DNA of 33,404 nucleotides from a virus, in IMG/VR virus record IMGVR_UViG_3300036393_000010, positions 1 through 33,404 of that record. One strand, written 5' to 3'. Both the position numbers and the translations under genes were made by a program. This document shows positions 9,776 through 22,622 of the stretch, piece after piece. Every line of letters starts with the position of its first letter. Positions within the stretch are counted from its first letter, which is position 1. The notes beneath the pieces were generated by a model, which was not told where the DNA came from, ran no database searches, and saw only the letters and a list, made by a program, of their open reading frames with translations.

Positions 9776-9969
9776 GACGGTTTCCCTTCGGTCACCGTCA
9801 ACGTGAAGCGCGTCCCGTCGATCTTGACGCCGAGATAGTGGAGGGGCGGCACTTGCTCGAATTCAAGGACCTCGACGTCGCGGTCCTCCAGATCGGGGTG
9901 ATCACCGAGGAAGAGGTTCAGCGTGGCGCGGATCAGGTCCGTCACGTCGAAGATGTCCGGTGCGCTCAC
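9772..9969 (-). CDS. Small acidic hypothetical protein, 65 residues
   Basis: GTG at 9969 overlaps the upstream stop as GTGA. The N-terminus is helical (DIFDVTDLIRATLNLFLGD) and the C-terminal half beta-rich (VEVLEFEQVPPLHYLGVKID, FTLTVTEG). Strongly acidic. No family recognised. Confidence 0.55.
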   Translation of the reverse strand: MSAPDIFDVTDLIRATLNLFLGDHPDLEDRDVEVLEFEQVPPLHYLGVKIDGTRFTLTVTEGKPS

Positions 9970-10286
9970 GCCGCCATCCTTTCCGGCGGCAGAGCGCCCG
10001 GCCCCGGGCCGGGGCGCGGATCGTAGAGGCAGCGATTGGTGTTGCTCGTGCCGAACGGGTCGGCCGGGTCAAACTCCCACGCGCGGCCGTTGTACGAGAT
10101 GTAGGCAGTCTTCCGGCCCGCGCCGTCGAAGATTTCGCAGAGCGGTGTTTCGCTCGCCCCGAGATCCAGCGCCGTGATCGCGCGGCGATAGGCGCGGCTC
10201 ACTTCTTCGAACGTGGTGAAGGGGAACTGCCGCCCCTCGATGATCACGTGATCGAAGCGCCGGTGACCAATTTCCAGATCCATCAT
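9966..10286 (-). CDS. First gene of the left operon, hypothetical, 106 residues
   Basis: Starts MMDLEIGHRRFDHVIIEG with GGGAGGG about 10 bases upstream, the best ribosome site of the operon. A beta-alpha pattern (QFPFTTFEEVSRAYRRAIT, then ETPLCEIFDGAGRKTAYISY) is followed by a Gly/Pro-rich tail. Transcription should begin about 37 bases upstream at the repressor-controlled promoter, making this the first product expressed on induction. No family recognised. Confidence 0.6.
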   Translation of the reverse strand: MMDLEIGHRRFDHVIIEGRQFPFTTFEEVSRAYRRAITALDLGASETPLCEIFDGAGRKTAYISYNGRAWEFDPADPFGTSNTNRCLYDPRPGPGPGALPPERMAA

Positions 10287-10329
10287 GTGGGTCCCTCCCT
10301 TTGCACCGCTTGTCAGCGGGCGTCAGGGA

Positions 10330-10358
10330 GTAACACCACAATGGTGTCACCAAGTCAA
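10330..10358 (-). promoter_or_regulatory. Left early promoter
   Basis: On the minus strand TTGACT (10358-10353) is followed after exactly 17 bases by TGTTAC (10335-10330). The -35 is near consensus and the -10 is weak. Operator B touches the -35 and operator A covers the -10, so repressor binding would block RNA polymerase. The predicted start near 10323 gives a leader of about 37 bases. Confidence 0.6.
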
Positions 10359-10372
10359 CACCATTCCGGTGT
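10333..10372. promoter_or_regulatory. Repressor operators A and B (ACACC-N5-GGTGT)
   Basis: Operator A (10333-10347) is ACACCacaatGGTGT and operator B (10358-10372) is ACACCattccGGTGT. Both have perfect 5-base arms around a 5-base spacer, with centres 25 bp apart. The same palindrome recurs at 11483-11531 beside the repressor start. They are most simply sites for the repressor encoded at 10790-11446 and/or the Cro-like protein. Confidence 0.8.
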
Positions 10373-10374
10373 TT

Positions 10375-10779
10375 TTATTCGTCGGGGTAGATTTCGTCAG
10401 GCCAGAAGCCGGTGTCGTCGTCCTTCCCGGGGACCGATTCGGGAGGCGGCTCGGGGGGCAAGACAGGATGCTCGCCGTCGAAAGCTGCCCGGATCACCGC
10501 GCCGTAGCTTGCCACCCGTTGGAAGATGGCCCGCACCTCGCGGCCTTCGCCGATCAATTTCCCGATCCACCCGCAGCGCTCGGCAGACAGATACCCGATC
10601 TGGACGTTGCGAGAGCTGAACACGGCGACGGCGCGCGGATCGACGGGGTTCTTCGGCTCAGGGATCAGCTCGACGGGTTCACCAGGGACGCACAGTGCGA
10701 TCTCAAATCGGCGACCCGGGCCACGCTTGTTCGGATGATCGGCGCCGACGACGGCCAGGCTCAGCGAAGCGAGCGGCAT
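10375..10779 (-). CDS. HIRAN-domain-like protein
   Basis: 134 residues from MPLASLSLAVVGADHPNK. The segment RRFEIALCVPGEPVELIPEPKNPVDPRAVAVFSSRNVQIGYLSAERCGWIGKLI follows the HIRAN pattern: two strands, the N-P-x-D-x-x-A-V-x-V box, then a G-Y-L-x motif. HIRAN domains bind 3' DNA ends or damaged DNA, often next to helicases. A proline/acidic tail (PPEPPPESVPGKDDD) follows. It lies 10 bases downstream of the repressor and is probably co-expressed with it in the lysogen. ATG 10806 is an alternative start overlapping the repressor. Confidence 0.7.
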   Translation of the reverse strand: MPLASLSLAVVGADHPNKRGPGRRFEIALCVPGEPVELIPEPKNPVDPRAVAVFSSRNVQIGYLSAERCGWIGKLIGEGREVRAIFQRVASYGAVIRAAFDGEHPVLPPEPPPESVPGKDDDTGFWPDEIYPDE

Positions 10780-10789
10780 TTCGCAGTCG

Positions 10790-11446
10790 CTAGATCTCGC
10801 GGGCATACCATATGACGCGGCCCTCAATCCTCAGGTCGTCGGCATCCACCTCATAGTCGTCAACGCGAGGATTGTCGGAAATGATGAGCATCCGTCCGCT
10901 GCCGACCGCGCGAAGCCGCTTGATGCCGTGGGCGCCGAGATGGTTGATCCAGTAGACGCCATGAATGCGCGAATAGGCCCGCTCGGTCGTGTCGACCATG
11001 ACGCGGTCGCCGGGGAACAGCGTCGGCTCCATGCTGTCGCCGATGCCCTTCACCAGGCGCAGCCGGCTGGGAACGGATCGCGTGATCGACCGAAGGAACG
11101 CCAGATCGAACTGGATCGGCTCCCCCTCGACCATGTCCTCAATGAGCGTCCCCGGGCCCATTGAAAGAGAAAGGTCCAGGACGATCAGCTCCACGGTCTC
11201 GCCGACATCCGCCGATCGGGTCGGAAGGATGTCCGGAAGCTGAGCGGGAGGGGTCGTTGCGATGATGTCGGCGAGTTCGACGCCCAGAGCCCGGGCGGCC
11301 CTCTCGATCCAATCCTGGGCGAGCCGGCGCTGTCCCTTCTCGAGGCGCTCGACCTGCTGAGGGCTGGTGCCCATGCGCTCGGCGAGCTGCGGTCGAGACC
11401 AGCCGCGAGCCTTGCGCAGCGCCTCGATATTGTTGCCCGTGGCCAT
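10790..11446 (-). CDS. XRE/S24-type phage repressor
   Basis: 218 residues starting MATGNNIEALRKARGWSRPQ. Residues 7-57 are an XRE HTH (SRPQLAERMGTSPQQVERLEKGQR). After a linker, residues 85-218 form a LexA/CI-like S24 domain: GIGDSMEPTLFPGD with Ser138, and GAHGIKRLRAVG with Lys176, the catalytic dyad of self-cleaving repressors. No clear Ala-Gly cleavage bond was identified, so RecA-stimulated self-cleavage is possible but unproven. The ATG has AGGA upstream; the longer frame to 11836 runs through the operator region and is rejected. It maintains lysogeny, presumably through the four flanking palindromes. Confidence 0.9.
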   Translation of the reverse strand: MATGNNIEALRKARGWSRPQLAERMGTSPQQVERLEKGQRRLAQDWIERAARALGVELADIIATTPPAQLPDILPTRSADVGETVELIVLDLSLSMGPGTLIEDMVEGEPIQFDLAFLRSITRSVPSRLRLVKGIGDSMEPTLFPGDRVMVDTTERAYSRIHGVYWINHLGAHGIKRLRAVGSGRMLIISDNPRVDDYEVDADDLRIEGRVIWYAREI

Positions 11447-11482
11447 GATTTGTCCTGCCCTATCGGCAGTGTCGTCGCCCAC

Positions 11483-11531
11483 CCTCCAAAATGGTGTTGA
11501 CATTTGGCTTCGAGTAACACCAAAACGGTGT
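11483..11531. promoter_or_regulatory. Right early promoter with operators C and D
   Basis: Operator D (11517-11531) is ACACCaaaacGGTGT with perfect arms. Operator C (11483-11497) is CCTCCaaaatGGTGT, one perfect and one degenerate arm. A plus-strand -35 TTGACA (11497-11502) begins on the last base of C, the same junction (GGTGTTGAC) seen at the left promoter. A 17-base spacer puts the -10 inside D, although that hexamer (CCAAAA) is poor. The region also holds the repressor's own promoter on the minus strand, so autoregulation is likely. The gap 11447-11548 contains nothing else. Confidence 0.75.
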
Positions 11532-11548: not shown

Positions 11549-11860
11549 ATGCCCAGACTTAAGGAATGGCTGGAGTCGAAAGGGCGGACCCACGTCGACT
11601 TCGCCACGGAGATCAACCGCACGACTGAGGCCGTGCGCCGGTATTGCAACGGCGACCGCATCCCCGATCGCGAAACCATGCCGCTGATCGTCGATGCCAC
11701 CGGCGGCGAGGTCACCGCCAACGACTTCTTCGGCATCTCGGCGTCGACCGCGCCGAAGGTCTGCCCGACCTGCGACCCGTCGTCCGAAGATCCACTGGTG
11801 CGCAACTGCGTCGCCAGCAATTGCGGTCTCGCGCACCGCGAGCGGAAGGCGGCGGCATGA
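11549..11860 (+). CDS. Cro-like HTH regulator with C-terminal cysteine cluster
   Basis: 103 residues. The N-terminal 60 are a Cro/YdaS-type HTH: LKEWLESKGRTHVDFATEINRTTEAVRRYCNGDRIPDRETM, then IVDATGGEVTANDFF, typical of Cro-like proteins specifying a default regulator. The C-terminus adds CPTCDPSSEDPLVRNCVASNC (four cysteines) that may bind zinc. GGAGGT lies 7 bases before the ATG. As the first gene of the right operon, opposite the repressor, it is the likely antirepressor/Cro partner acting on the same palindromes. Confidence 0.8.
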   Translation: MPRLKEWLESKGRTHVDFATEINRTTEAVRRYCNGDRIPDRETMPLIVDATGGEVTANDFFGISASTAPKVCPTCDPSSEDPLVRNCVASNCGLAHRERKAAA

Positions 11861-11967
11861 TCGGCGGGCTTTCGATTTCGCTCCATGCCAGCCGGCCTAT
11901 CCGCCGGCCGGCGCACGGTCACCGGGAAACGGCACGGCGTTTTCCCCTCACGAGGAACGCAGGGTGA
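11857..11967 (+). CDS. Small basic ORF, 36 codons
   Basis: ATG at 11857 overlaps the Cro-like stop (ATGA) and the frame ends with a GTGA overlap into the next gene. It encodes MIGGLSISLHASRPIRRPAH followed by more arginines. It may be a real micro-protein or a coupling frame. Support is only the overlap pattern. Confidence 0.35.
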   Translation: MIGGLSISLHASRPIRRPAHGHRETARRFPLTRNAG

Positions 11968-12440
11968 ACGGCGCCCTGCCCCCCGAAGAGCGCCTGCTCG
12001 CGCTCGCCACCAAGCGTGCGATTGAAGCGGCCGGCCATCTCGCCGTCTGCGCGCCGGCCACCGGCCTTTCGGACAGCCACCTCTCGCGCTGCAGCAGCAT
12101 CGATTCGCGCGACAGCATCACGATCCGGGACGCCCGGACGATCGACGCCCTCGGCACCGGCGTCGCCGGGCACCCGTTCATCCTGCAGGAATATGCCCGG
12201 CAGATCGGCTTCGTCGCGATCCAGCGCCCGACCGGGCCACAGGATCCGGACGGCATCATGCAGTCGATGATGGAGCTGACCAGCGAACTCGGCGACGTCG
12301 CCGCCAGCATCAGCGCCGGCCTGCGCGACCGCAAGATCAACGCCGCCGAAGCGCGGCATGCACTCGACCAGCTCTTCGAGTTGGACCGGGCCAGCGCGAC
12401 GCTGCGGCACAAGCTCGAGGAATTGGCGAAGGAGGCCTGA
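11964..12440 (+). CDS. CII-like phage regulator
   Basis: 158 residues from a GTG start (GTGA overlap). Residues about 8-75 resemble the phage regulatory CII (CP76) family of alphaproteobacterial phages: LALATKRAIEAAGHLAVCAPATGLSDSHLSRCSS, then IRDARTIDALG and HPFILQEYARQIG, an HTH in which SDSHLSRCSS is the recognition helix. The C-terminal half is helical (MQSMMELTSELGDVAASISAGL, HALDQLFELDRASATLRHKLEE), suited to oligomerisation. Position just after Cro matches cII of lambdoid phages. The family call is by pattern only. Confidence 0.6.
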   Translation: MNGALPPEERLLALATKRAIEAAGHLAVCAPATGLSDSHLSRCSSIDSRDSITIRDARTIDALGTGVAGHPFILQEYARQIGFVAIQRPTGPQDPDGIMQSMMELTSELGDVAASISAGLRDRKINAAEARHALDQLFELDRASATLRHKLEELAKEA

Positions 12441-12682: not shown

Positions 12683-13081
12683 GTGACCGACAAGGACCCG
12701 GGCGCCGGGGCCGCGATGGCGGCTTCGGCGGATGAAAAGCCGCGCGCGGATGGCGGGCAGGACGAACTGATCCGGATGGCCGTCGAAGACGTGCCATTCG
12801 GATCGCCGGTCCGCGAGATGGGCGACGGCTGCGGTATCTCGCTTCTCCTCACGGACATGATCGGGGTGGCGCGCCGCCGCCGAGGCGACGACGGCCGCGG
12901 CTATTCGACCGGCGAGGACGTCTTCATCCGTCGCGATGGGGGCGTCCTGGCCCGCATCGCGGAAGACGTCGATATCACCGTCCGTGGCGTCATCTGTCGT
13001 CTGCGCGCCGGCGATCAGCCCTATCTCCATCTCGCCGGCGGCAAGATCGTCGGCTACCAGGGCGACGGGGTGGCCTCGTGA
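12683..13081 (+). CDS. Hypothetical protein, 132 residues
   Basis: GTG start with GGAGAAG upstream. An acidic N-terminal tail (MTDKDPGAGAAMAASADEKP) is followed by a compact beta-rich domain: DGCGISLLLTDMIGVARRRRGDDG, GEDVFIRRDGGVLARIAEDVDITVRGVICRLR, then YLHLAGGKIVGYQGDG. No family recognised. It ends with GTGA coupling to the helicase-methyltransferase, so the two products are probably made together. Confidence 0.6.
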   Translation: MTDKDPGAGAAMAASADEKPRADGGQDELIRMAVEDVPFGSPVREMGDGCGISLLLTDMIGVARRRRGDDGRGYSTGEDVFIRRDGGVLARIAEDVDITVRGVICRLRAGDQPYLHLAGGKIVGYQGDGVAS

Positions 13082-15720
13082 GCGGCGAGGGCATCCTCCC
13101 CAACGACGGCCGGCCCGTATTCCTCGGGCTCGACCTCGCCAGCGGGCCGGACATGTGCGTCGAATGGCCGCTGCCGCGGCGCGACGGTTATCGCGACTTC
13201 CTCGAAGCGAAGATCGCGACGCCGCCAAGCGTCGGCCTGCCGTGCGAAATCGAAGACACCCGCGCCTTCCTGTCCGACGGCCGACCGGCCAAGGACCATG
13301 TCCGCCATATCGTCCGCTGGGCGGTGCGCGGTGGCCGGCGCGGCATCTTCGCGAACTTCGGCCTGCACAAGACAATGATGCAGCTCGAAATCGGCCGGCT
13401 GATCACGTCGAAGGCCGATTGCCGGGGGCTGATCGTGCTCCCGCTCGGCGTCCGCCGCGAATTCCTCATCGATGCCCGGCTGCTCGATGTTCCGGTGTCC
13501 TTCGTCCAGTCCGACGACGAGGTCCGCTCGGCGACGCCGCCACCCGACATGCCGGCGCCGCTCTACCTCACCAACTATGAGAGCGTCCGCGAAGGCAAGA
13601 TCGATGTCTCGCGGTTCGGCTGGGCCAGCCTGGACGAGGCGAGCATCCTCCGCTCGTTCGGATCGAAGACCTATCAGGAGTTCCTGCCGCTCTTCGATCT
13701 GGTGCCGTACCGCCACGTCGCGACCGCCACGCCGTCCCCGAATCGGTACAAGGAGCTGATCCACTATGCCGGCTTCCTCGGCATCATGGACACCGGCCAG
13801 GCACTGACCCGCTTCTTCCAGCGCAACAGCGAGCGGGCGAACGACCTCACCCTCTATCCCCACAAGGAAGCCGAGTTCTGGCTCTGGCTCAATTCGTGGG
13901 GCGTCTTCCTGCAGCGCCCATCCGACCTCGGGTTCTCCGACGAAGGATACGACCTGCCGCCGATCACGGTCCGGTACCACAGCGTCACGACCGATTTGGC
14001 GTCCGGCGCCGGCGAGGAGAGCAACGGGCAGGGCAGGCTCATGCGGGACGCCGCACTGGGCGTCATCGATGCCGCCCGGGAGAAGCGGGCGACGCTCCCG
14101 GCGCGGATCGAGAAGGTGGATGAGATCGTCGCCGCGGCGCCCGGCGAGCATTTCATCATCTGGCACGACCTCGAGGATGAGCGTCGGGCGATCGAGGAAA
14201 CGCTGCCCGACGCGAAGGCGGTCTTCGGAGCGCAGGACCTGGACGCGCGCGAAGAGATCATCGCCGATTTCGCCGAAGGCCGGCTGCCGCTGCTCGCCGC
14301 CAAGCCGGTCATGCTGGGGAGCGGAACGAACCTCCAGCGCCACTGCCACCGCGCGATCTTCGCCGGCGTCGGCTTCAAGTTCAACGACCTCATCCAGGCG
14401 ATCCACCGGCTGCACCGTTTCCAGCAGCAGCGCCCGGTCGAGATCGACATCATCCATGCCGAAACCGAGGGCGAGGTCCTGCGCACGCTTCAGGAGAAGT
14501 GGGCTCGGCACGACGAACTCACCGCCCGGATGTCCAAGATCATCCGGGAGTTCGGCCTCAACCACGAGGCGGCGGCCGAAACGCTGCGCCGGTCGATCGG
14601 CGTCGAGCGCCGGAGCATGGCCGGGACCAACTGGACGATGGTCCATAACGACTGCGTCGATGAGTTGCGGCGCCTGCCGGACAGCTCCGTCGACCAGATC
14701 ATCACCTCGATCCCCTTCGGCAATCACTACGAATATTGCGAGAGCTACAACGACTTCGGCCACACCGACGATCACGAGCACTTCTTCCGGCAGATGGACT
14801 TCCTGACGCCGGAGCTGCTGCGGATCCTGAAGCCCGGTCGGGTCGCCTGCATCCACGTCAAGGACCGCATCCAGTTCGCCAGCGTCACCGGAATGACGCG
14901 GCCGACGGTCGAGCCCTTCCACGCCGACACGATCGCGCATTTCCGCCGCCATGGCTTCGGCTATATGGGCCTGCGCTTCATCGCCACCGACGTCGTTCGC
15001 GAGAACAACCAGACCTATCGGCTCACCTACAAGGAGCTGAAGAAGGACAGCACGAAGATGGGGTCCGGCTCGCCGGAATTCCTCCTGCTGTTCTTCAAGC
15101 TGCCGACCGACCGCAGCAACGGTTATGCCGATGAGCCGGTCACCAAGGATCCCAGCCTCTACAGCCTCGCGCGCTGGCAGATCGACGCCGACGCGCTGTG
15201 GCGCTCGAGCGGCAACCGCCCGGTCACGGCCGCCGAGCTCGCCTTGATGCCGCCGGACGCGCTTGCCCGGGCTTTCCCCGCGTGGTCGGTGCAGGACGTC
15301 TACGATCACGACGATCATGTCGCGGTCGGCGAGGGGCTGGAGGAGCGCCGGGCACTGCCGCGCACCTTCTCCGTCCTGAAGCCAGGCACCTGCCGCGACG
15401 ACGTCTGGACCGACGTCGCCCGGATGCAGACCCTCAATGGCGAACAGACCCGCCGCGGCCTCGAAAACCACATCTGCCCGCTCCAGTTCGACATCGTCGA
15501 CCGCGCGGTCCGACTCTATTCCAACCCCGGCGACCTGATCCTTGACCCGTTCGCCGGGCTCGGCACGGTTCCGATGCGCGCCGTACTGGCCGGGCGCCGC
15601 GGATATGGGGTGGAGCTGAACCCCGACTATTTCCGCGACGCACTTCACTATTGTTCCGAAGCCGAGCGCCAGCGCGCGACGCCCAGCCTGTTCGACCTTC
15701 TCGACGCGGAGGCGGCATGA
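13078..15720 (+). CDS. Helicase / beta-class DNA amino-methyltransferase fusion
   Basis: 880 residues. The N-terminal half is an SF2 (SNF2-like) helicase: motif I as AxxGxHKT (FGLHKT, K98), motif II LDEAS (185-189), motif III TATPSPN (216-222), motif V MLGSGTNLQ (412-420), motif VI QAIHRLHRFQQ (440-450). Residues 515-870 are an N6-A or N4-C methyltransferase: NDCVDEL, motif IV TSIPFGNHYEY (543-553), and motif I near the C-terminus as DPFAGLGT (823-830). The order IV-then-I defines the beta class. Such fusions are widespread in phages; SIPF replaces the commoner PPY, and His replaces the second Gly of Walker A. Start GTG overlaps the previous stop. It likely methylates phage DNA while translocating. 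Confidence 0.9.
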   Translation: MSGEGILPNDGRPVFLGLDLASGPDMCVEWPLPRRDGYRDFLEAKIATPPSVGLPCEIEDTRAFLSDGRPAKDHVRHIVRWAVRGGRRGIFANFGLHKTMMQLEIGRLITSKADCRGLIVLPLGVRREFLIDARLLDVPVSFVQSDDEVRSATPPPDMPAPLYLTNYESVREGKIDVSRFGWASLDEASILRSFGSKTYQEFLPLFDLVPYRHVATATPSPNRYKELIHYAGFLGIMDTGQALTRFFQRNSERANDLTLYPHKEAEFWLWLNSWGVFLQRPSDLGFSDEGYDLPPITVRYHSVTTDLASGAGEESNGQGRLMRDAALGVIDAAREKRATLPARIEKVDEIVAAAPGEHFIIWHDLEDERRAIEETLPDAKAVFGAQDLDAREEIIADFAEGRLPLLAAKPVMLGSGTNLQRHCHRAIFAGVGFKFNDLIQAIHRLHRFQQQRPVEIDIIHAETEGEVLRTLQEKWARHDELTARMSKIIREFGLNHEAAAETLRRSIGVERRSMAGTNWTMVHNDCVDELRRLPDSSVDQIITSIPFGNHYEYCESYNDFGHTDDHEHFFRQMDFLTPELLRILKPGRVACIHVKDRIQFASVTGMTRPTVEPFHADTIAHFRRHGFGYMGLRFIATDVVRENNQTYRLTYKELKKDSTKMGSGSPEFLLLFFKLPTDRSNGYADEPVTKDPSLYSLARWQIDADALWRSSGNRPVTAAELALMPPDALARAFPAWSVQDVYDHDDHVAVGEGLEERRALPRTFSVLKPGTCRDDVWTDVARMQTLNGEQTRRGLENHICPLQFDIVDRAVRLYSNPGDLILDPFAGLGTVPMRAVLAGRRGYGVELNPDYFRDALHYCSEAERQRATPSLFDLLDAEAA

Positions 15721-17048: not shown

Positions 17049-17356
17049 CCGAGCGCGCACCTCGCCACATTGTCGACGATCTCGGCCGGAAGCTGCTCGC
17101 AGATGTCACCGACGCAGCGGAGCGCACTGCGTCGCTCGTCGTACATCCGAGCGACCGCGCCCTTGTCTGTTTCCTCGCCTTCGGCGGCGTTCTCGGCATG
17201 TGCCTGCGCTATTCCGAGCATGGCTGGGGACAGGGGCTTGCGCCCGAGGCATTGACCGATCTGCTCTGGCAAGAACGAATTCGGCCGATTGTGCTTGGGG
17301 TCATCGACGGCGCTGATCTGGATGCGATCGTAGGCGGAATGCGGGGTGTCGCCTGA
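17045..17356 (+). CDS. Hypothetical protein, 103 residues
   Basis: [20 protein letters not shown] starts at an ATGA overlap with the GapR-like gene. A mildly hydrophobic centre ([20 protein letters not shown]) could be a buried helix or weak membrane segment. The C-terminal end is [20 protein letters not shown]. It is coupled as TGATG to the cytosine methyltransferase. No family recognised. Confidence 0.55.
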
Positions 17357-19989
17357 TGGCGATGATCACTTCGGGCGGCTGCGCCGAGCGCGTCATCCGC
17401 CACGCCCATCTGTTTTGCGGACTTGGGGCAGGGGCCAAGGGCTTCAACATGGCGAAGGCTCGGGTTGGCAACGTGGTCGCCCGCTTCGTTTGCAACGGCG
17501 GGATCGACGTCGATCCCGGCGCGATTCGCAATTTCGAGCGGCTGACCGGCGTTCCGGGCACCGTCATGGACCTGTTCAGCCGCGACCAATACGTGGCGTT
17601 CCACGGCAACGAGCCTCCGGCCGGCTGGGTCGAAGCGACGCCCGCCGATGTGCGGCGCGCCCTGAGCGGCCCGAATGGCGAGCGCCCCGACGTCGTGTTC
17701 CTGTCGGCGCCGTGCAAAGGTTTCTCCGGCCTCCTCTCATCGAAGCAGTCGCTCACCGACAAGTATCAGGCACTCAATGCGCTGACGCTGCGCGGCGTCT
17801 GGCTGGTCTGCGAAGCGTTCAAGGACGGGCCGATCCCGGTCATCCTGTTCGAGAACGTTCCCCGGATCATGACGCGTGGGCGGTCGTTGCTCGACCAGAT
17901 CAGCGCCATCCTGCGGTCCTACACCTACAATGTCGCCGAGACCGTGCATGACTGCGGCGAGCTGGGCGGGCTGGCGCAGAGCCGCAAGCGGTTCCTGCTC
18001 ATCGCTCGCCAGCGCGAGATCATCCCCAATTTCATCTACGAACCGGAGAAGAAGCGGCTCCGCGGTGTCGGCGAGGTCATCGGCAAACTACCGCTGCCTG
18101 GCGACCCGATCGCCGGCGTGATGCACCGCGTCCCCATGCTCCAATGGAAGACGTGGCTGCGGCTGGCGCTCGTGCCGGCCGGCCGTGACTGGCGCGCCCT
18201 GAATGAGCTCGCCGTCGTCGACGGTGTGCTGCGCGATTACGGCATCATCCCGGATGCTCCGATGCGCAATAGCGACCTGGGCGTTCTCGGCTGGGGCGAT
18301 ACCGCGCCGGTCATCACTGGCGCCATGCGCTCGCCGATGCAGGGCAAGTTTTCGGTCGCCGACCCTCGTCCGACCCAGTCGAACATCACCTATCAGCAGT
18401 ATGGGGTTCGCCATTGGAGTTCCTCCTCGATCGCGGTCTCCGGACAGGCGACGCCCGGTGGCGGACCCTATGCCGTCGCTGATCCGCGTCCGAACGGGAT
18501 GATGTCCGGAGGGCTGGGCGTTTTGCCGTTCAGTGCCACGGCTGGCACGGTGGGAGGCGAGACGCTACCCACGAACGGCCGCTATTCCATCGCCGATCCC
18601 CGCCCGGTGCGTTCGCTCGCGCTCGGTCACGAATATCTCGGCGTGAACGGCTGGGAAACGGCGATCGGGGCCATCTCCTCCCGAGGCGGCGCGACGAATG
18701 GTGCCTATTCGATTGCCGATCCTCGTCCGGGCTATGGTCCGGCAACGCACCGATATGTTCTCGGCGTGCTCGACTGGCAGGAAGCGGCCGGCGTGCTGGG
18801 CGCGAGCCCGAAGCCGACATCCGGTCCGAATGCAATCGCGGACCCGCGCGTCGACGGCCACCCGAAGAGCGTTATGCTCGGCGTGCGGCCGTGGACCGCC
18901 ACAGCGGCTTGCGTGAAGGGGGACGTTTCGGTCGGTACCGGCCCCTATGCGATCGCCGACGTGCGGATGGGCGACCGACCCCGGTTCAACAACACCTTCC
19001 GGATCGTGAGGATCGACCAGCCATCAACCGCCGTCGCCGGTCCGGGCGGGCCGGCCGGTGGCGCTTGCCTGGCCGACCCGCGGATGGCCGACCGTGATTA
19101 CGAGACGACGAAGTACAAGATCACGCCCTGGAACGGCGCGAGCCGGGCTGTGATCGGAGCCTCAACCACGGGCGACGGTGCATTCGCGCTCGCCGATCCT
19201 CGGGGCGGCCCGGATGCAAAGCGGCTGCACGGAAAACATCGGGTCGAATGCTGGGTTGGTCCGGCGGCACGTGCCGTCATCGCCGGCAGAGAGAACGGGG
19301 CCAGCGCGATTGCGGACCCGCGCTGCAACTGGGGCAATCGCCACGAAAATGTGTTGCGGGTCACGCCCGGCGACGCGCCTGCCGGTGCGATCACCAGCGG
19401 CGGCCATAGCGTCACCGGCGGACAACCTTGCGTCGCGGATGGGCGGCGAGAGCATTTCGACGGTGGCGGACATTATGGCGTGCTCGCGTGGAAACAGCCC
19501 GCCAGCACCGTGTCCGCGTCAGGGAGCCATGACAACGGGCGCAACTCAGTCGCCGATCCTCGCGGCCCGATCCTGGACCCGAGCGAACCCATTCTCCTGC
19601 CCAAGCCCGACGATCGGCTGGTATGTCGGATCGTCTCGCTCGACGAATGCTGGCATCGGCCCTTTACCACGCTCGAACTCGCAGCACTGCAGTCTATCGT
19701 CGATCCGGAAGAAGCTTTCTATCTGGGCGAAGATGGTGCGTGGCGCGCGCGCCTTCCCTTCGACCTCGACAGCAAGAGCGATGCCGAAAAGCGCGAATGG
19801 ATCGGCAACGCCGTACCTAGTGAGAGCGCGGCGGAAATCGGCGGCGTCATCGGCGAGGCGATCCTGCTCGCAGAGATGGGCGAGACCTTCACGCTGTCCG
19901 AGCGGACGATCTGGGTTTCCCCGACGCGCATCGCGCTCGCCGTCGACAGTCGACAACTCGCAAGCGACATGGACGCAGGGCTGGCATGA
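17356..19989 (+). CDS. Cytosine-C5 DNA methyltransferase with repeat-expanded recognition region
   Basis: 877 residues, about twice a typical C5 enzyme. The catalytic N-lobe has motif I HLFCGLGAGAKGF (18-30), motif IV SAPCKGFSG with nucleophile Cys120, motif VI ENVP (166-169) and motif VIII QSRKRF (208-213). The C-terminal lobe has a motif IX-like segment ending TTLELAALQSIVD, and motif X GNAVPSESAAEIGG (about 816-829). Between them, residues about 308-738 consist of about eleven similar units ending in ADPR. That is where C5 enzymes place the target recognition domain. The enzyme would methylate cytosine in phage DNA against restriction. Neighbouring genes overlap by a few bases (TGATG before, ATGA after). 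Confidence 0.92.
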   Translation: MAMITSGGCAERVIRHAHLFCGLGAGAKGFNMAKARVGNVVARFVCNGGIDVDPGAIRNFERLTGVPGTVMDLFSRDQYVAFHGNEPPAGWVEATPADVRRALSGPNGERPDVVFLSAPCKGFSGLLSSKQSLTDKYQALNALTLRGVWLVCEAFKDGPIPVILFENVPRIMTRGRSLLDQISAILRSYTYNVAETVHDCGELGGLAQSRKRFLLIARQREIIPNFIYEPEKKRLRGVGEVIGKLPLPGDPIAGVMHRVPMLQWKTWLRLALVPAGRDWRALNELAVVDGVLRDYGIIPDAPMRNSDLGVLGWGDTAPVITGAMRSPMQGKFSVADPRPTQSNITYQQYGVRHWSSSSIAVSGQATPGGGPYAVADPRPNGMMSGGLGVLPFSATAGTVGGETLPTNGRYSIADPRPVRSLALGHEYLGVNGWETAIGAISSRGGATNGAYSIADPRPGYGPATHRYVLGVLDWQEAAGVLGASPKPTSGPNAIADPRVDGHPKSVMLGVRPWTATAACVKGDVSVGTGPYAIADVRMGDRPRFNNTFRIVRIDQPSTAVAGPGGPAGGACLADPRMADRDYETTKYKITPWNGASRAVIGASTTGDGAFALADPRGGPDAKRLHGKHRVECWVGPAARAVIAGRENGASAIADPRCNWGNRHENVLRVTPGDAPAGAITSGGHSVTGGQPCVADGRREHFDGGGHYGVLAWKQPASTVSASGSHDNGRNSVADPRGPILDPSEPILLPKPDDRLVCRIVSLDECWHRPFTTLELAALQSIVDPEEAFYLGEDGAWRARLPFDLDSKSDAEKREWIGNAVPSESAAEIGGVIGEAILLAEMGETFTLSERTIWVSPTRIALAVDSRQLASDMDAGLA
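18277..19567 (+). repeat. About eleven diverged coding repeats (LGVLxW...G.x.IADPR)
   Basis: Each unit is about 33-48 residues and follows one template: a hydrophobic strand with Trp (for example LGVLGWGDTAPVITG), a short Gly/Ser loop, then G-x-x-[SA]-[VIL]-A-D-P-R. Endings in order include KFSVADPRP, PYAVADPRP, RYSIADPRP, AYSIADPRP, PNAIADPRV, PYAIADVRM, GACLADPRM, AFALADPRG, ASAIADPRC, QPCVADGRR and RNSVADPRG. Copies differ strongly in sequence, so this is an old expansion within the gene rather than recent slippage. Confidence 0.88.
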
Positions 19990-20789
19990 TCGTCGCGACC
20001 TGCCAGCGCTGGCGCGACCGGCGCGAATATCGAGTGCCGCTCTCCCGGATCGACCCGGCCATCCTGTCCGTCGACGTGGTCGACGAAGCCAGGTGCGCGA
20101 AGCCGTTCGTGATCCGCCACCACTATTCGGGCACCTTTCCGGCCGCCCGGCTGTGCGTCGGTCTCTACCGGCACCGCGAGCTTGTCGGCATTGCCGTATT
20201 CTCCGAGGGCATGCAGCCGCGTGCGGTGCCGAAATGGACGGGTGGCATGACCGGCTGCGAACTTGGCCGATTCGTGTTGCTCGACGATGTCCCCGGCAAT
20301 GCCGAGAGCTGGTTCCTCGCCCGGGCATTCAGGGCGTTGCGCCGTGAGAAGCCGGCCGTCGAGGCGGTGTTGTCCTATTCGGATCCGGAGCCGCGCTTCG
20401 ACCCGGCCGGCCGGCTCACCAAGCCCGGACACGTCGGTACCATCTATCAGGCGATGTCCGCCCTCTATCGCGGCCGGGCCAGTCCGCGCACCGACTATGT
20501 GACGCCGTTCGGCGAGCACATCTCACGCCGCGCCCTGTCCAAGATCATGCTCGGCGAACGGGGCGAAGGATATGCGGTGGATCAGCTTCATCGCCTCGGC
20601 GCGCCGCGCCGCGAATTCGGGGAAGGCGGCCGTGCCTGGGTCTCCCGGCTCATCGATGATGAGCGCTGGTTGCGGACCTCGCGCCATCCCGGGAACCACA
20701 CCTACGTCTTCCCGCTGAGCGCCCGCGCCCGCGCGGCCGGCCGGCGGCTTTCGACCCTTCCTTATCCCAAGCTGGCGAGGTGCGCATGA
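19986..20789 (+). CDS. Mom-family DNA-modification acyltransferase
   Basis: 267 residues with the conserved blocks of the Mom family: FVIRHHYSGTFPAARLCVGLY (HHYSG 45-49), ELGRFVLLDDVPGNAESWFLARA (92-113), SYSDP (130-134), GHVGTIYQA (148-156), then RALSKIMLGERGEGYA. Mom of phage Mu is a GNAT-fold protein that converts adenine in DNA to N6-methylcarbamoyl-adenine, blocking many restriction enzymes. The ATG overlaps the C5-methyltransferase stop (ATGA), so cytosine methylation and adenine modification are probably co-expressed. It is slightly longer than Mu Mom (about 240 residues). Exact modification here is unproven. Confidence 0.8.
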   Translation: MIVATCQRWRDRREYRVPLSRIDPAILSVDVVDEARCAKPFVIRHHYSGTFPAARLCVGLYRHRELVGIAVFSEGMQPRAVPKWTGGMTGCELGRFVLLDDVPGNAESWFLARAFRALRREKPAVEAVLSYSDPEPRFDPAGRLTKPGHVGTIYQAMSALYRGRASPRTDYVTPFGEHISRRALSKIMLGERGEGYAVDQLHRLGAPRREFGEGGRAWVSRLIDDERWLRTSRHPGNHTYVFPLSARARAAGRRLSTLPYPKLARCA

Positions 20790-21358: not shown

Positions 21359-21705
21359 TGGAGAACGTGCGGCCCAGCGACGGCAAGCGCTCTAAGGTGC
21401 CTGCCATCGACCTGAACACCAGAGGGTATCGGGCAGGCGAGCGCGTGCTCTTCAGGGGCCTGTTCGGCTTCGGCATCGCCGAAATCGGCGCCGTGCACGG
21501 AAACACTGTCCATCTCGCCAGCCAGGCGGTGCCGGTGAACGAGGTGTCCGGCCGCGTGCCGGCCGGAATGACTGTAGCGGCCGAAGCCGAGCTGTTGGCG
21601 AGGCTTAAGGCCGCAGACGACGCCTGCGCCGCCGCCGAAGTGGCGGCACGGCGTTCGCGCGACAGTCAGCACGGCTGGCTCCTTCGGGAGGCGGGCATCC
21701 GGTGA
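21358..21705 (+). CDS. Hypothetical protein, 115 residues
   Basis: TGATG coupling to the previous gene. The N-terminal half is beta-rich (GYRAGERVLFRGLFGFGIAE, IGAVHGNTVHLASQAVPVNE), like a small SH3-type barrel. The C-terminal half is an Ala-rich helix (ELLARLKAADDACAAAEVAA). Family unknown. It ends with GTGA coupling to the PP-loop gene. Confidence 0.55.
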   Translation: MENVRPSDGKRSKVPAIDLNTRGYRAGERVLFRGLFGFGIAEIGAVHGNTVHLASQAVPVNEVSGRVPAGMTVAAEAELLARLKAADDACAAAEVAARRSRDSQHGWLLREAGIR

Positions 21706-22622
21706 CCGAATCGAGCATGAACCCCTATCGTATCGACGGCCCGGCACTGATCAGCTTCAGTGGCGGCCGGACATCCGCGTTCATGCTCTATCAAATCCTC
21801 GAAGCCTATGACGGTCGGCTCCCCGACGACGTGCATGTTTGCTTCGCCAACACCGGCAAGGAGCGCGAGGAGACGCTTCGGTTCGTACACGAGTGCAGTG
21901 CGAGGTGGGGTGTGCTGGTTCGGTGGATCGAATGGCGTGATCGTCGGCGCCGCACGCCGGTGGAAGCCCGCTTCGAAGAGGTCGGCTTCAATAGCGCGTC
22001 CCGGAAGGGCGAGCCGTTCAAGTCTCTCGTCCAGAGTAAGAAGCGTGTGCCGAATGCGGTCGAGCGCTGGTGCACCGAACATCTCAAGGTTCAGGTGTGC
22101 TCCGATTTCATGGAGGCGCAGGGATATAGTCGGTGGACAAATGTTGTTGGCCTTCGCTCTGACGAGATGCGGCGGGTTGCCAAGAAGGTAATCCAAAATG
22201 AGGAAGCGAAACTTCGTTGGGTGACGCTCATGCCTTTGGTGAAGGCGCGCGTCGTCAAGCGGGATGTTAGGAAGTTCTGGTTCGGCAAGGATGGTATCGA
22301 CGTTTCGACCCCAGCCCATCTGCTGCCGCAGGGATTTGATCTTGGGCTTGAGGAGCACGAGGGCAATTGCACGATGTGCTTCGAAAAGGGTTGGGCGATA
22401 GCAGTCCATGAGGCGCGGCGTGATCCGGCAAATGCCGAAGATTGGGCATTGATGGAGGAACTCGGCGGCGGCCGATTTACGACCGAGTGGAGCATCCGCG
22501 ACGCTATCAGGGCCGCCGCGTCAAGCCCGTTTCTTCCGCTTGGCGATCAGTTTCGCGACTACGATGCGGAGTGCGGCGTTGGCGGCGTCGATGCGTCGAT
22601 CCGTTGCGGGCGCTCCGCATGA
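21702..22622 (+). CDS. PP-loop (PAPS-reductase-like) protein
   Basis: 306 residues. The PP-loop SFSGGRTSAFMLY (18-30) binds ATP/adenylylated substrates in PAPS reductases, DndC and tRNA thiolases. Further conserved pieces are FANTGKEREETLRFV, RWCTEHLKVQ and GNCTMCFEKG, whose cysteines could bind a metal or thiol intermediate. Phage members are annotated as PAPS-reductase-like with unknown substrate; a DNA or RNA sulfur/nucleotide reaction is inference. GTG 21702 overlaps the previous stop; ATG 21717 is an alternative. From about 21880 to 22500 the base composition is visibly less GC-rich than its neighbours, suggesting separate acquisition. Confidence 0.8.
   Translation: MTESSMNPYRIDGPALISFSGGRTSAFMLYQILEAYDGRLPDDVHVCFANTGKEREETLRFVHECSARWGVLVRWIEWRDRRRRTPVEARFEEVGFNSASRKGEPFKSLVQSKKRVPNAVERWCTEHLKVQVCSDFMEAQGYSRWTNVVGLRSDEMRRVAKKVIQNEEAKLRWVTLMPLVKARVVKRDVRKFWFGKDGIDVSTPAHLLPQGFDLGLEEHEGNCTMCFEKGWAIAVHEARRDPANAEDWALMEELGGGRFTTEWSIRDAIRAAASSPFLPLGDQFRDYDAECGVGGVDASIRCGRSA

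Follow-up and report, generated by a model that had tools for sequence, protein, structure and literature searches.

The palindrome ACACC-N5-GGTGT of this virus is predicted, with high confidence, to be the operator of the CI-like repressor encoded beside it, placed at both early promoters in an immunity switch that resembles those of lambda and N15 and has its own specificity. The type of switch is familiar; what sets this variant apart is a separate specificity class and a leader feature at the left promoter. The window, 33,404 bp long, comprises an entire IMG/VR virus record. It is a temperate tailed phage, encoding terminase, portal, capsid protease, head proteins, a helicase, DNA methyltransferases, a Mom-like protein and CI-, Cro- and CII-like proteins. 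The repressor relatives with named hosts are found mostly in sphingomonads (Sphingomonas, Novosphingobium). The literature search identified no paper on the immunity region of this phage group, and nothing specific on sphingomonad phage immunity or on the ACACC-N5-GGTGT palindrome.

Layout of the switch region

The window was compared with its relatives in a family of 30 distinct phages and prophages (window included), collected by repressor searches and an operator-pair scan and sharing the CI recognition helix xQQ[VI]ERLE. The members are related and were chosen by repressor or operator similarity, so the counts given below are not independent events. The features of the switch region are the following:

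9966-10286, minus strand: first gene of the left operon, 106 aa, no family match in profile searches
10295-10330, minus strand: predicted PL leader hairpin, in which the Shine-Dalgarno of the first left gene, AGGGAG, is paired to CTCCCT (MFE -22.6, z -4.3)
10330-10335, minus strand: likely PL -10 TGTTAC, 17-bp spacer (direct reading; TGTT kept after OL1)
10333-10347, no strand: OL1, perfect predicted operator located in the spacer/-10 region of PL; distance to OL2 23-26 bp in 28 members
10353-10358, minus strand: PL -35 TTGACT (direct reading)
10358-10372, no strand: OL2, perfect predicted operator abutting the PL -35, pair kept in 28 members
10375-10806, minus strand: HIRAN-domain protein between cI and PL (PF08797 1.3e-8, phrog_27141 5e-38)
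10790-11446, minus strand: CI-like repressor, N-terminal Cro/CI HTH and C-terminal S24 (LexA-like) domain (phrog_4 2.5e-37, PF00717 2.2e-11, HTH_31 1.7e-12)
11457-11471, no strand: place of OR3 in the relatives, decayed in the window, where it reads CACTGCCGATAGGGC on the minus strand
11483-11497, no strand: OR2, abutting the PR -35, repressor-proximal arm degenerate (never GGTGT, 30/30 members)
11497-11502, plus strand: PR -35 TTGACA, 18-bp spacer to the family -10 (TTGAC in 30/30 members)
11517-11531, no strand: OR1, perfect predicted operator whose core is the PR -10 position (window CAAAAC, 11521-11526), 34 bp from OR2 in 30/30
11549-11860, plus strand: Cro-like HTH protein, first gene of the right operon, with a GGAGGT Shine-Dalgarno (HTH_3 5e-5, phrog_2967)
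11967-12440, plus strand: CII-like activator, frame start approximate (phrog_101 3e-16, PF06892 8e-11)

The operators flank the CI-like S24 repressor and cover two divergent TTGAC(A/T) promoters. A search of both strands of the whole record gave perfect copies at 10333, 10358 and 11517, the coordinates given in the preliminary description, and nowhere else; the chance expectation is 0.00 (sd 0; 100 dinucleotide shuffles of the record). The genome-wide scan which that description had proposed as a check thus returned the three switch sites and no scattered copies. The fourth site, at 11483, carries two mismatches in one arm, which reads CCTCC. At two mismatches the record contains 12 matches against 7.8 by chance, so this site is significant only through its conservation and its position, which is exactly that of the conserved family operator. 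Its degeneracy had been described correctly, but it is not a mere worn copy, since the repressor-proximal arm of OR2 is never an intact GGTGT in the 30 members (GGAGT in 10, GGCGT in 7, GGAGG in 5, and others). Degeneracy of this arm is thus conserved in the family, which suggests that weakness is built into OR2; OR1 keeps GGTG in 29 of 30. A terminator-like match at 10357-10373 (plus strand) was discarded, being the operator palindrome itself.

OR1 and OR2 lie exactly 34 bp apart in all 30 members, and OR3 was identified 26 bp beyond OR2, just before cI, in 28, the exceptions being the window and L166. With three putative right operators the family fits the plan of lambda and N15, and the window is an exception in that feature. 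The left pair is separated by 23-26 bp, with 24 or 25 in 25 of 28 members. Four relatives present an extra palindrome, GCACC-N5-GGTG(T/C), located 107-109 bp before the OL pair and near the end of the HIRAN gene (L004:4807, L136:4632, L137:2916, L138:3988); it is absent from the window.

At both PL and PR the junction GGTGTTGAC is shared by an operator and a -35, which bears out the earlier statement that an operator abuts a TTGAC(A/T) element at each promoter. A sigma-70 consensus scan of the switch region gave no consensus promoter, so the -10 assignments are based on family conservation. The core of OR1 supplies a PR -10 (CATAAT, CATATT, CATATC or CATTAT) at 18 bp from TTGAC in 29 of 30 members. 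The further statement that a second operator falls on the -10 is thus correct for PR in the family, but not in full for the window: its own PR hexamer, CAAAAC, is a poor -10, and OL1 covers just the first three bases of the likely PL -10. The window PR may be weak or altered, since CAAAAC is the sole exception among the 30 members at this position. With the outlier hexamer and the lost OR3, the right side of the window looks changed relative to its relatives, and the switch of this phage may have been altered or have decayed in part.

The start-to-start distances of 25 bp on the left and 34 bp on the right agree with the spacings first reported, which had been proposed to set different repression strengths for the two operons. 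The difference is consistent across the family (34 bp on the right, 23-26 bp on the left), yet selection for such tuning is considered unlikely: on the right, OR2 and OR1 contain the -35 and -10 elements, which fix the distance at 34 bp, and on the left the distance drifts, as it would if a workable promoter spacer were all that it has to preserve. Promoter geometry explains the left/right difference at least as well as tuning.

A Cro-like orthologue is found at the same place in nearly all members, and the HIRAN-domain gene is kept directly before PL in most relatives. Variable genes stand between cI and the HIRAN-domain gene in many of them (L004, L080, L164 and others), a cargo slot whose position matches that of the rexAB genes of lambda; in L164 one cargo gene between cI and PL encodes an ATPase matching the candidate defence family PDC-M28C. 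In CI, Ser138 and Lys176 (the S24 catalytic Ser/Lys) are invariant, and no Ala-Gly or Cys-Gly cleavage site was seen in the linker, which has MG at 96-97. An (A/G)TG directly after OR2 (window 11482-11446, minus strand) is in frame with cI in most members and possibly marks the transcription start of cI or a leaderless start; from such a leaderless start the OR1 centre would lie near -42, as for the activating site of lambda PRM. As the leaderless start of cI this (A/G)TG, present in 26/30 members, was rejected, being ATA or ATT in four members and having an in-frame stop in L173. Further along the record are two large early proteins (13078-15720 and 17356-19989, both plus strand), one matching DNA helicase and N6/N4 methyltransferase families and the other C-5 cytosine methyltransferase; after them, 19986-20789 encodes a Mom-like DNA modification protein and 21702-22622 a protein resembling phosphoadenosine phosphosulfate reductase.

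Operator letters and recognition helices

Where a related repressor has another recognition helix, ACACC sites are absent and repeats of its own stand in the same layout. Three further classes were identified: TGCCC-N5-GGGCA (L005, L009 and L187), paired with CI proteins carrying TTLNMLGKLERG/TTINNLGKLERG helices; GTGCG-N5-CGCAC (L006 and L010); and a GTGCA type (L183). Their right sites are spaced by 32-35 and 26-27 bp, and their layouts score 27-29 of 30 against shuffled maxima of 22-24. The degenerate proximal arm of OR2 is also found in the TGCCC class (3/3) but not in the GTGCG class. By these comparisons the operator letters are shown to evolve with the recognition helices, while the putative three-site layout is kept across immunity classes. 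The more distant S24 repressors (L188-L213) gave no three-site layout, which limits this chassis to the present clade.

The association was also read in reverse, scanning viral sequences with the 14-base pattern ACACC-N5-GGTGTTGAC alone. This returned 120 loci, mostly chance matches. Of these, 14 show the helix or another site no more than 60 bp away; the second site lies at +23 to +25 in all but one. The same recognition helix is encoded by 10 of these 14 loci and by none of the other 106.

It is very improbable that the main protein binding these sites is the Cro-like one or a host regulator and that CI has other targets. Cro has an HTH and is located at the switch, and in phiKO2 the two proteins differ in site preference (PMC4997575). 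Against this, the operator sequence follows the recognition helix of CI across the classes, and the OL-pair pattern occurs in just 3 of 398 sampled genomes of one sphingomonad's family (a reversed-pattern control gave no matches), which argues against a host regulon. In CI and in Cro alike, helix position 34 is Arg in the ACACC class and Lys in two TGCCC phages, those in which Cro was examined. The agreement within each class points indirectly to shared sites for CI and Cro. Conservation, covariation with the recognition helix and absence elsewhere in the record thus agree in supporting the original proposal that the sites are early-promoter operators of the phage repressor.

A predicted hairpin in the PL leader

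The RNA that follows OL1 is predicted to form a hairpin in nearly every member, its 3' arm holding the Shine-Dalgarno of the first left gene. Among 25 distinct PL leaders, three of which belong to two other immunity classes (three classes in all), 21 have this element fully paired, where shuffles predict 7.0. Its mean unpaired probability in read-through RNA is 0.05, compared with 0.63 in cro leaders and 0.38 in other genes of the same loci; in the window the value for the read-through transcript is 0.00 in silico. Masking of the first left gene's Shine-Dalgarno is therefore a predicted and conserved property. The leaders of L055 and L006 have near-identical predicted hairpins despite their different operator class, which suggests recombination between immunity regions.

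The 5' arm of the hairpin ends about at the expected PL start, often before an A located 6-8 nt after the -10. Since PL has the same leftward orientation as cI and the accessory genes, a role as silencer of cI read-through is proposed: translation of the left operon would be blocked in long transcripts from cI, and RNA initiated at PL would be more open. This role is advanced tentatively, at less than even probability. An ordinary mRNA-stabilising 5' stem, or a nut-like antitermination element, without any silencing of read-through, has a considerable probability, though also below even. The hairpin stands right at the 5' end of the PL transcript, the position of nutL in lambda, and transcripts from the predicted PL start free the Shine-Dalgarno only partly (mean unpaired 0.36, in silico). 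In the other direction, the pairing partner is the Shine-Dalgarno in 21 of the 25 leaders, no constant loop or box was seen in these hairpins, and the cro leader has no such structure.

The proposed read-through silencer would have a parallel in gene e of T4, where long transcripts from upstream have their Shine-Dalgarno sequestered in an RNA helix and those from the nearby promoter lack the 5' arm (PMC3014915). The likeness would lie in the predicted, conserved hiding of this element in the long transcript and in the 5' arm lying near the predicted PL start; here, in contrast, the hairpin is a prediction and stands at a lysogeny-switch promoter.

Proposed switch and its relation to known systems

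From the anatomy of the region and its conservation, dimers of CI would bind the 15-bp operators and keep both early operons off in the lysogen: at PR and PL alike, the first site (OR1 or OL1) would close the -10/spacer region and the second (OR2 or OL2) the -35 element. OR2 is probably intrinsically weak, because one of its arms is always degenerate. In the relatives, filling of OR2 and OR3 at high CI would probably limit cI's own promoter, since OR3 adjoins cI, and Cro would compete for the sites of CI. With the 5' arm of the PL hairpin at or before the predicted start, leftward read-through from cI may be translationally silent and PL RNA more open.

The immB regions of N15 and phiKO2 contain three right operators between repressor and cro and two left ones, each of 16 bp (PMC4997575), and the window's family has the same plan of three plus two. 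Differences are the operator itself (TA-N10-TA in those phages, ACACC-N5-GGTGT in the window), the repressor, which in N15 and phiKO2 lacks the S24 catalytic Ser/Lys (PMC4997575) whereas the CI of the window has S138 and K176, and the position of their left operators before the replication gene repA. The CII-like activator downstream of cro is a feature of lambda which N15 lacks and the window has.

Lambda, 434 and 933W share with the window a CI with HTH and S24 domains, a divergent Cro, a CII-like protein and OR/OL sites over divergent early promoters. They differ in the right side, where OR1 and OR2 are here 34 bp apart and lie on the -10 and the -35 of PR, respectively; in the left side, with two OL sites here; and in OR3, missing in the window. 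The HTH of 434 repressor is among the closest solved ones, aligning with that of the window CI (PDB 1per, E 5e-4); its helix reads QQSIEQLENG against PQQVERLEKG in the window, and its operator also begins with ACA. The operators of 434 are of the ACAA type and 14 bp long. Arms and length thus differ, the overall similarity is low at this E-value, and the window sites, being ACACC-N5-GGTGT and not ACAA-type, do not show the specificity of 434 repressor. In lambdoid phages the intrinsic affinity of OR2 is weaker than that of OR1 (PMC3317979), in line with the weakness predicted here from the degenerate OR2 arm.

Taken together, an unchanging chassis, made up of three right sites (spacings of about 34 and 26 bp), a left pair and a PL leader that hides the Shine-Dalgarno, would accept swapped operator, CI and Cro specificities, and PL, starting inside an inhibitory hairpin, would add a second, RNA-level lock on lysogeny; this combined model is offered as a possibility, somewhat doubtful as a whole. 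The ACACC, TGCCC, GTGCG and GTGCA classes constitute a natural series of repressor-operator pairs on one chassis, useful for deriving recognition rules and as a source of orthogonal repressors for alphaproteobacteria. If confirmed, the hairpin would show how a prophage whose cI transcript faces its own left early operon avoids translating that operon.
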